A stretch of DNA of 64,000 nucleotides, taken from the NCBI RefSeq assembly GCF_900105065.1, contig NZ_LT629749.1, positions 2,542,001 through 2,606,000 of the forward strand, given 5' to 3'. The notes under the pieces are model-generated. The model saw only the letters and a program-made list of their open reading frames with translations, made no database searches and was not told the DNA's origin. Below, in pieces: positions 28,018-30,680 of this stretch (position 1 is the stretch's first letter; each line of letters begins with the position of its first letter). The position numbers were made by a program, and so were the translations under genes. Source of the DNA: Friedmanniella luteola. GTDB taxonomy: Bacteria; Actinomycetota; Actinomycetes; Propionibacteriales; Propionibacteriaceae.

Positions 28018-28047
28018 GGCGACGCGCCGACGAGCACTTCGTCTGAC

Positions 28048-28090
28048 GACGACGAGACCCCCGCGGGCAACCCGCGGGGGTCTCGTCGTC
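28048..28090. terminator. 20-bp perfect hairpin, bidirectional terminator
   Basis: Arms 28048-28067 and 28071-28090 pair perfectly around the loop CAA. It separates the rightward bL37 gene from the leftward sigH-rshA operon. Confidence 0.85.
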
Positions 28091-28113: not shown

Positions 28114-28389
28114 TCAGTCCTGCTGCGCGTGCGCGGTCGCCTGCGCCGCCGCCAGCTGGCCCAGCACCTTCGTGCGCAGCGCGCTCGGGGCCTTGTCGCC
28201 CCCGCAGCACCGGTTCACCAGGCTCTTGACGGCCTGCTCGACGTCGTAGCGGTCCAGGCAGGGCTCGCAGGCCACGAGGTGCGCCCGGATCTCATCACTG
28301 CTGGCCGAGTCGAGCTCCTGGTCCAGGAACTGGTGCACCCGCGCGAGCATGTGCTCGCAGTCGGCGCTCGTGGTGCTCTGGTCGCTCAC
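28114..28389 (-). CDS. rshA: Zinc-binding redox anti-sigma factor (RsrA/RshA type)
   Basis: 91-residue ZAS-family anti-sigma factor that holds the SigH/SigR-type sigma inactive until thiol oxidation expels zinc. His37, Cys41 and Cys44 form the HxxxCxxC motif, with Cys11 as the usual extra ligand; Cys61-Cys62 near the C-terminus are additional. GTG 28389 overlaps the sigma-factor stop by four bases, the conserved arrangement for this pair. Confidence 0.95.
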
Positions 28390-29117
28390 TTCGATCCCCC
28401 CTGACGAACCATCCCGCGGTCACGCGCGTAGTCGGCGAGCAGCGCCCGCAGCTGGGTGCGGCCGCGGTTGAGCCGCGACATCACCGTGCCGATGGGCGTG
28501 CCCATGATCCCAGCGATCTCCTTGTAGGAGAAGCCCTCGACGTCGGCGAGGAACACCGCGAGCCGGAAGTCCGGGGCGAGCTGCTGCAGCGCCTCCTTGA
28601 CGTCGGAGTCGGGCAGGTTCTCCAGCGCCACCGTCTCGGCGGACTTGAGGCCGCTCGAGGTGTGCGACTCCGCCCGGGCCAGCTGCCAGTCCTCGACGTT
28701 CTCCCCGTCGGACAGCTGCGGCTGGCGCTGCTTCTTCCGGTAGGAGTTGATGTAGGTGTTGGTGAGGATCCGGTACAGCCAGGCCTTGAGGTTCGTGCCC
28801 GGCGTGAACTGGTGGAACGAGCCGTACGCCTTGGCGAAGGTCTCCTGCACTACGTCCTCGGCGTCGGCCGGGTTCCGCGTCATCCGCATCGCCGCCGCGT
28901 ACAGCTGGTCGAGGTACTGCAGCGCCTCGGTCTCGAACCGGAGCGTCCGCTCGGCGTCGGTCTCGGTGCTGCGCGGGTCGACCGGGTCGGCGACCGGTGC
29001 GTCGGTCACGGCCCCGCTGGGGGTGGAACTCGTCGGGATGCTCATCACGTACGAGAGTACCGGCGAGCGTCCGGGCAGTGTCGGCTGCTCGGTCACACCC
29101 GGCATGGTCATCGGCAT
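28386..29117 (-). CDS. sigH: ECF sigma factor of disulfide stress (SigR/SigH)
   Basis: ECF sigma factor that turns on thioredoxin and other thiol-stress genes. Region 2 ([26 protein letters not shown], with the -10 contact helix [16 protein letters not shown]) and region 4 ([31 protein letters not shown] type helix-turn-helix) are clear. Two starts are plausible: ATG 29117 (243 residues) or ATG 29045 (219 residues, MSIPTSS). The autoregulatory promoter's predicted start site lies 1-2 bases before ATG 29117, which favours a leaderless long form; Streptomyces SigR also has a long isoform. It forms an operon with the anti-sigma factor. Confidence 0.93.
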
Positions 29118-29124
29118 GCCGGTA

Positions 29125-29151
29125 CAACGCGAGCCGACCGGCGCTATTCCC
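29125..29151 (-). promoter_or_regulatory. SigH/SigR-type autoregulatory promoter
   Basis: On the minus strand: GGGAAT (29151-29146), 17-nt spacer, GTTG (29128-29125). This matches the GGAAT/GTT consensus of SigR/SigH promoters. The -35 lies inside the last codons of the upstream hydrolase gene. Confidence 0.8.
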
Positions 29152-29823: not shown

Positions 29824-30615
29824 TCAGAGCAGCCGGTCCTGCTCGGGCGGGTCGGCCGGCGCGTCGTCCCGCACCGTCGGCCCCGCCTCGGCGAGGGGCT
29901 CCAGCAGCGACGGGTCGTTGTTCTGCACCTTGTTGACGGCGGTGGAGACGGCGTAGGCCTCGAGCTCGGCCGCGTCGGTGACCGACAGCAGGCCGAGGGC
30001 CTGCTCCGGGTCGGTGAGCGCGGGGTCCAGCCACCCGTCGACGGCGTCGGCGGGCACGACGAGCGGCATCCGGTCGTGGATGTGTCCGGCCGCGTCGGTG
30101 GCCCGGGTCGTGATCACCGAGCAGGTGCGGAGCCAGGCCGTGTCGTCGTCCCGGTCCTTGGTGGGGTCGCGCCAGATCTCGTAGAGGCCGGCCATCACCA
30201 GCAGCCCGCCGTCGGCCCGGTGCAGGAAGAACGGCTGCTTGGCGGGCTTCCGGCCGCCGGGCGGGGTCTCGGGCTCGTACCACTCGTAGAAGCCGGCGGC
30301 GGGCAGCAGGCACCGGCGGGACCGGAAGGCCTTCGCGAAGGCCGGCTTCTCGGCCACCGTCTCCAGCCGGGCGTTGATCATGCGCGCGCCGATCGAGCGC
30401 TCCTTGGCCCACGAGGGCACCAGGCCCCAGACCAGGGGCGCGAGCCGGCGGCGGACGTCCCCCGACGCCCGGTCGACCCGTTCGAAGACGGCGGGCACCG
30501 CCACGGTCGGGGCCACGTTGTAGTCCGGGCCGGGCAGGCCGTCGAGGATGTCGTCGACGTCGAACTCCTCGGCCAGCTGCCGGGGGCTCGCGGTGGAGGC
30601 GTAGCGACCGCACAT
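29824..30615 (-). CDS. SRAP-domain abasic-site DNA-protein crosslinking protein (YedK/HMCES)
   Basis: 263 residues. ATG 30615 places the catalytic cysteine at position 2 (MCGRYA), which after Met removal becomes the N-terminal Cys that crosslinks to abasic sites in single-stranded [37 protein letters not shown] (catalytic Glu) and HDRMP (His) all match the family. The ORF extension to 30666 would bury this cysteine and is rejected. A TAGCCT hexamer lies seven bases upstream, so the mRNA is probably leaderless. Confidence 0.95.
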
Positions 30616-30622
30616 GCCGGGC

Positions 30623-30628
30623 AGGCTA
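30623..30628 (-). promoter_or_regulatory. -10 of SRAP gene (leaderless)
   Basis: TAGCCT on the minus strand, seven bases before ATG 30615. Confidence 0.5.
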
Positions 30629-30680
30629 CCGGGGGCGGGCCGGGGTTGGCTGGTCCCGGCCGGCACGGTAGGAATAGCCC

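Follow-up and report, generated by a model that had tools for sequence, protein, structure and literature searches.

The sigH gene of Friedmanniella luteola raises the question of whether one reading frame can yield two sigma factors, the N-terminus of each being set by the promoter from which its transcript begins. The gene lies in a 64-kb stretch of DNA (64,000 nucleotides, here called the window) of a 4.7 Mb genome assembled as a single contig. On the minus strand sigH, the sigR orthologue, occupies 28386–29117 in its long, 243-residue frame and matches the curated SigH/SigR family TIGR02947 at 338.4 bits (cut-off 251.55). It is followed on the same strand by rsrA (28114–28389), whose product scores 90.6 bits as the mycothiol-system anti-sigma-R factor TIGR03988 (cut-off 62.5) and carries the zinc anti-sigma motif H-x3-C-x2-C in the form HLVACEPC. 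The GTG start of rsrA overlaps the sigH stop codon and is preceded by an SD-like AGGGGGG. Just 3′ of rsrA (28045–28090, minus strand) we noticed by eye a strong GC-rich inverted repeat, possibly a terminator, with no T-run after it. Lying 5′ of sigH on the same strand are genes for an alpha/beta hydrolase (PF20408) and a SRAP protein (PF02586); the latter, SOS-response-associated, is at 29827–30666, directly upstream of the hydrolase gene and sigH. The sigH sequence finds matches at 16 further places in its own genome (E ≤ 0.001), and it is likely that F. luteola has many additional ECF-type sigma factors.

A SigH-type autoregulatory promoter, here p2, had been proposed for the minus strand in a preliminary description of this DNA, and its elements are indeed present: the −35 element GGGAAT at 29151–29146 and the −10 element GTT at 29128–29126, separated by 17 nt. 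Eight nucleotides after GTT is ATG 29117 (29115–29117), which opens the 243-codon frame ending at 28386; a second ATG in the same frame, at 29045, gives 219 residues. The locus thus shares with the SigR/SigR′ system a putative autoregulatory promoter of SigR type ahead of an additional, upstream start in the same frame. Two details of the preliminary description need amending. The predicted p2 start site is near ATG 29117, but the suggested position 1–2 nt before it is matched by an equally likely start on the A of the ATG itself, because the pyrimidine–purine step falls at C29118/A29117. The −35 hexamer does overlap the upstream hydrolase gene, but only at its very end, where it runs through the final two codons into the T of the TAG stop (29146–29144). 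GGGAAT-N16–18-GTT occurs once in the 64 kb, both strands considered; shuffled versions of the window contain it 0.13 times on average, and since 13 of 100 shuffles hold at least one copy the motif alone is weak evidence. Its evidential weight comes from conservation.

To look at conservation, 197 genomes of the Propionibacteriaceae were searched. A sigH match was found in 176, and 110 of these loci from 28 genera were analysed, comprising the 30 best matches and 80 picked by hand among the matches listed, for genus spread. Using the pattern [N]GGAA[TC]-N16–20-GTT, and choosing the promoter by its own sequence, we find a SigH-type promoter upstream of sigH in 104 of the 110 loci. The strict pattern went unmatched in the other six (L092 and L097, which are truncated by contig ends, and L163, L183, L191 and L197). 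Spacers of 18 (47 loci), 19 (37) and 17 nt (20) were seen, so that the F. luteola promoter has the shortest spacer length observed. In 100 of the 104, GTT is followed after 6–10 nt by an ATG or GTG whose frame continues uninterrupted into sigH, such in-frame triplets peaking at 8 nt (35) and 9 nt (56), in agreement with the near-leaderless 243-residue form that had been proposed. When the stretch between GTT and the conserved core was shuffled with dinucleotides kept (200 rounds), this p2 rule was satisfied on average by 1.50 of the 104 loci and never by more than 5. A pyrimidine precedes the long start in 92 of the 100. The family loci are related and the counts are therefore not independent; each of the 28 genera nevertheless has at least one p2 of the leaderless type, as do all members in 22 of them, and this spread rules out a quirk of a single genome.

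As scored, the p2 rule does not hold in four of the 104 loci. One of them, L198, has another candidate promoter that puts an ATG at 10 nt, and in L111 a GTG is near the expected place but its frame is not open. In the other two (L105 and L107, the M. parietis type) inspection by eye reveals a GGAGG SD sequence before a start further down, in place of the leaderless-type long start. Related genomes with leaderless-type and SD-led p2 transcripts would offer a natural contrast in which the value of leaderless initiation under oxidative stress could be judged.

What the preliminary description missed is that the short form has a predicted near-leaderless promoter of its own, equally conserved. Within the long reading frame a −10 hexamer of housekeeping type, TACTCT (29054–29059, minus strand), is followed after exactly 8 nt by the short-isoform start, ATG 29045 (29043–29045), the start of the proposed 219-residue form. 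A G two bases before the hexamer (29061), as in an extended −10 element, is kept in 98 of the 110 family loci. Between the long start and the conserved core, all 110 have a TANNNT followed, again after exactly 8 nt, by a start in frame; this start is ATG in 109 and GTG in one (L169, where GTG was accepted only after ATG had failed). At every other spacing from TANNNT (0–30 nt) an in-frame ATG occurs in at most three of the 110 loci. Among the loci with p2 the TANNNT-N8-start arrangement, ATG or GTG being allowed, is present in 104 of 104, against a mean of 0.46 and a maximum of 3 in shuffles; both rules together are satisfied by 100 observed loci and by none in the shuffles, which rules out a chance origin of the two geometries. 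We call this second promoter p1. Immediately before its start codon there is a pyrimidine at −2 in 110 of 110 loci and a G at −1 in 106, which suggests that transcription begins on the base preceding the ATG, G29046 in F. luteola. GTG 29048 was considered as an alternative short start and rejected, its G being conserved in 55% of loci versus 109 of 110 for the ATG of the next codon. No −35 element stands out for p1, no column exceeding 0.5 bits from −50 to −19 in the 110 family loci. The separate downstream promoter for a short form, the other trait of the SigR/SigR′ system, thus has a putative counterpart in TACTCT-N8-ATG, and promoter spacing together with the conserved start steps predicts transcription starts within about 10 nt of both start codons.

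The hexamer lies in coding sequence, and one could suppose that only the long form is used and that TANNNT-N8-ATG is kept for another purpose, for example to encode a peptide V/L-x-S-Y-x-M; peptides such as VLSYVM and LGSFVM do recur around the inner start. The residues vary, however, while the hexamer never departs from T and A at its first two positions or from T at its last, and the A sits at the wobble position of a GC-rich gene. In every one of the 110 loci the TA forms the end of a GTA or CTA codon; in the core, by comparison, these two codons together account for only 30 of 19,790. Such regular use of otherwise rare codons argues that selection acts on the DNA. The 8-nt spacing moreover returns outside the family, and we regard a long-only sigH as highly improbable.

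The complementary possibility is that only the short protein is made: p2 transcripts would begin near 29117 and ribosomes would use ATG 29045, the intervening 24 codons (29046–29117, minus strand), which contain p1, serving as a 5′ leader and not as the N-terminal extension of a long isoform. The extension is poorly conserved in sequence across the family. Its GC content by codon position (0.670, 0.639, 0.734) is less coding-like than that of the core (0.641, 0.443, 0.887), notably at the third position, which suggests that constraint at the protein level is loose. Against this, the frame is kept open: in the 98 loci where p2 and p1 leave 24 nt or more of readable sequence between them, frame 0 is interrupted in 2, compared with 47 and 29 for the other frames. 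Both promoter-to-start spacings hold, moreover, while the distance between the starts drifts (15–58 codons, median 26, in 100 family loci). The in-frame ATG or GTG on the predicted 5′ end of nearly every p2 transcript argues in the same direction, as do the initiation signals. With a permissive definition, an SD-like motif precedes the inner start in only 3 of 110 loci (107 are without one) and the outer start in 8 of 100; it is found at rsrA in 27 of 30 (the first 30 loci, either of the first two candidate starts being counted). In F. luteola both sigH starts are ATG and neither has an SD-like motif. In most loci, F. luteola included, a p2 transcript therefore offers ribosomes no SD at the inner start, and we consider it quite unlikely that the short protein is the only product.

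As to what the extension may do, a search for a Clp degron motif in the long N-termini of 100 loci gave a weak tendency only, on which we base no claim. Residue 4 is T in 45 of these N-termini and residue 5 is L in 31, which recalls the MGSTI start of a Streptomyces-like locus (L210) and may reflect either a degron or a preference at the start of translation. Given its poor conservation, a degron-like function of the extension, suggested by analogy, is an unproven candidate.

We also inspected the genome for other promoters of this kind. The strict SigH-type pattern has 20 sites in F. luteola and the reversed pattern none. Genes downstream of the 20 include those for a thioredoxin, a glutaredoxin-type protein, Fe-S assembly, a nitroreductase and luciferase-like oxidoreductases, which are of the kind known as SigR and SigH targets. 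Some sites have no clear gene. At five of the 20, sigH included, an ORF of at least 80 codons starts 8–9 nt after GTT. The other four, all with the start at 9 nt, precede genes for a nitroreductase (L228), a glutaredoxin-like protein (L236, which has GGAG between GTT and the start), a GNAT protein (L238) and a luciferase-like monooxygenase (L241), and this suggests a leaderless subset of the SigH regulon. It could be argued from these four that the p2 geometry is simply how SigH promoters ordinarily look in this clade and is irrelevant to isoforms. Other targets, namely the thioredoxin, Fe-S assembly, NmrA-like and second luciferase-like genes, nevertheless have SD-led starts 26–53 nt away. 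Since SD-led and near-leaderless targets coexist in one genome the geometry is optional; sigH, by contrast, keeps it almost without exception, and there the start shares its reading frame with another start that is likewise coupled to a promoter. An explanation by habit of the clade is thus unlikely.

Nine Clp loci were scanned for SigH-like sites. One such site, CGGAAT-N18-GTT (L312, 1272–1298), precedes the Clp_N match of clpC by about 230 nt and is possibly an arm of negative feedback. Another lies about 370 nt upstream of a further gene with two Clp_N matches, taken for ClpB (L316), and a third is far upstream (L315); four clpP loci, clpX and L314 have none. The background for such sites was 25 in 177 kb with strands counted apart, a value inflated by the choice of 20 of the 28 loci for their motif, and 4 in 128 kb, counted in the same way, for the F. 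luteola window. A plasmid search added nothing.

The arrangement at sigH is real and strongly conserved in the family. What we infer from it is the mechanism: the positions of the start sites, induction under stress, the use of each 5′ end for translation and an unstable long form. The gene would be read from two nested promoters, each with a transcript that begins at its own in-frame start codon or no more than about 3 nt from it. p1, with its housekeeping-type extended −10, would supply a near-leaderless mRNA for the short SigH of 219 residues, to be held inactive by RsrA. Thiol oxidation would free SigH, which would then fire p2, and the near-leaderless p2 mRNA, beginning at ATG 29117, would encode the long SigH of 243 residues. 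As no SD precedes the inner ATG, translation of the p2 mRNA is expected to yield mostly the long form, which would amplify the response and then, by analogy with Streptomyces SigR′, be cleared by Clp. We hold it very probable that p2 serves the long form (24 additional residues) under stress and p1 the short form at basal level, the choice of promoter being the choice of start codon. If so, the locus would be an isoform switch that dispenses with ribosome-binding sites and with a separate translation regulator, two sigma factors acting at two promoters to fix the N-terminus of a protein. It also suggests that annotation with one start per gene would miss one of the two SigH forms.

To see how far the arrangement extends, a search of the class was made, in which 192 of 197 genomes matched, two of these within the Propionibacteriaceae. 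We analysed 88 loci outside the family, from 30 families (the 28 best matches and 60 picked by hand among the matches listed); five families are absent from this sample, one having no match and four being absent among the matches listed. A SigH-type promoter is present in 82 of the 88; among these, 30 have a long start of the leaderless type, 33 an SD-led one and 19 one that is neither. Of the 88 loci, 47 have the TANNNT-N8 start, spread over 20 of the 30 families, and 41 lack it. The preference for this spacing is sharp, an in-frame ATG occurring 46 times at 8 nt and at most once at every other spacing; GTG has no peak there in the 88 loci. In family f2, of the same order, 14 loci have 13 TANNNT-N8 starts and a long start that is leaderless-type in 9 and SD-led in 4. 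The TANNNT-N8 start is lacking from all loci of family f15 (9/9) and family f5 (4/4), and from all 10 named Micromonospora loci, where the first in-frame start is 37–41 nt past GTT. It is likewise lacking from all 13 loci of family f17, taken as Streptomyces from its having the arrangement of a named Streptomyces locus (L014). As judged from these genomes, many families but by no means all have the putative short near-leaderless start, and the near-leaderless long start is present in some lineages and missing from others.

The logic of two isoforms is already known from Streptomyces. As reported for S. coelicolor, the downstream promoter sigRp1 gives short SigR and the SigR-dependent upstream promoter sigRp2 gives long SigR′ (PMC5472188; PMC4921905); SigR′ is described as having 58 extra residues and as a Clp substrate (PMC5472188), and short SigR as starting at GTC behind the SD AGGAGGTG (PMC5472188; PMC4921905). 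F. luteola resembles this system in its orthologous sigma/anti-sigma pair and in a long form that would arise from an upstream in-frame start. It differs in having two starts of putative near-leaderless type and an extension of 24 residues in place of 58; the Streptomyces form, with SD-led starts and GTC for the short one, is not seen, both starts being ATG. In the Streptomyces-like loci of family f17 the long start is mostly 44–60 nt after GTT and is SD-led in 13 of 13, a score that depends on the length of sequence scanned for the SD (4 of 13 with a narrower stretch). The SigR/SigR′ logic would thus extend past Streptomyces in a different form, with single-base predictions for many species.

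A more general principle may be sought in initiation factor IF3. The conserved point could be that SigH is kept on starts restrained by IF3, either near-leaderless TANNNT-N8 starts, as in the Propionibacteriaceae and 20 of the 30 other families sampled, or the Streptomyces GTC under a strong SD, while rsrA keeps an SD-led start. If so, stress of the oxidative or translational kind, by shifting the initiation factors, would alter the ratio of SigH to RsrA, and the long form could still be made from a leaderless p2 transcript when initiation at SD-led starts is impaired. Raised infC expression is reported to lower translation of model leaderless mRNAs in E. coli, in an account that gives IF3 a dual effect (PMC9031893). 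YchF is reported to fall under stress, and its absence to stimulate leaderless translation together with enhanced IF3 activity (PMC8138138). Because the latter report couples stronger IF3 activity with more leaderless translation, the idea is made less likely, and we find it rather doubtful.

Leaderless mRNAs are reported from several Actinobacteria, where they are described as lacking an SD and as having at most 10 nt between the 5′ end and the start codon (PMC3848588; PMC4633059; PMC4895711). For C. acnes, itself of the Propionibacteriaceae, the report places the centre of the TAnnnT boxes at −9 on average and describes many leaderless mRNAs, with 50 annotated start codons overlapping a start site and 88 more following one within 10 nt (PMC3848588). 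As far as these accounts of C. acnes, Mycobacterium and Streptomyces go, leaderless mRNAs are counted gene by gene, whereas sigH stacks two leaderless-type starts in one frame. We found no description of leaderless SigH/SigR isoforms in the open-licence literature, a scope outside which Kim 2009 and Kim 2012 fall, where mention is possible; nor did the literature searched yield the double near-leaderless arrangement, its conservation or its distribution. In M. tuberculosis, 25 SigH start points are reported, 18 leadered, 3 no further than 5 bp from a start codon and 4 lying inside genes by more than 5 bp, the intragenic ones possibly giving alternative protein forms or reflecting mis-annotation according to the authors (PMC4803200). 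The closest case is sigE of M. tuberculosis, with promoters P1–P3, in which P2 is reported to coincide with the start codon and give a leaderless mRNA and the SigH-dependent P3 to lie inside the coding region (PMC10027907). There too, by that report, promoter choice decides the isoform, but the internal stress promoter leads to shorter forms with non-canonical starts (PMC10027907). At F. luteola sigH the stress promoter would instead be external and give the longer form, the internal promoter being of housekeeping type. On this account sigE of M. tuberculosis is the nearest relative of F. luteola sigH in logic, with the opposite geometry.
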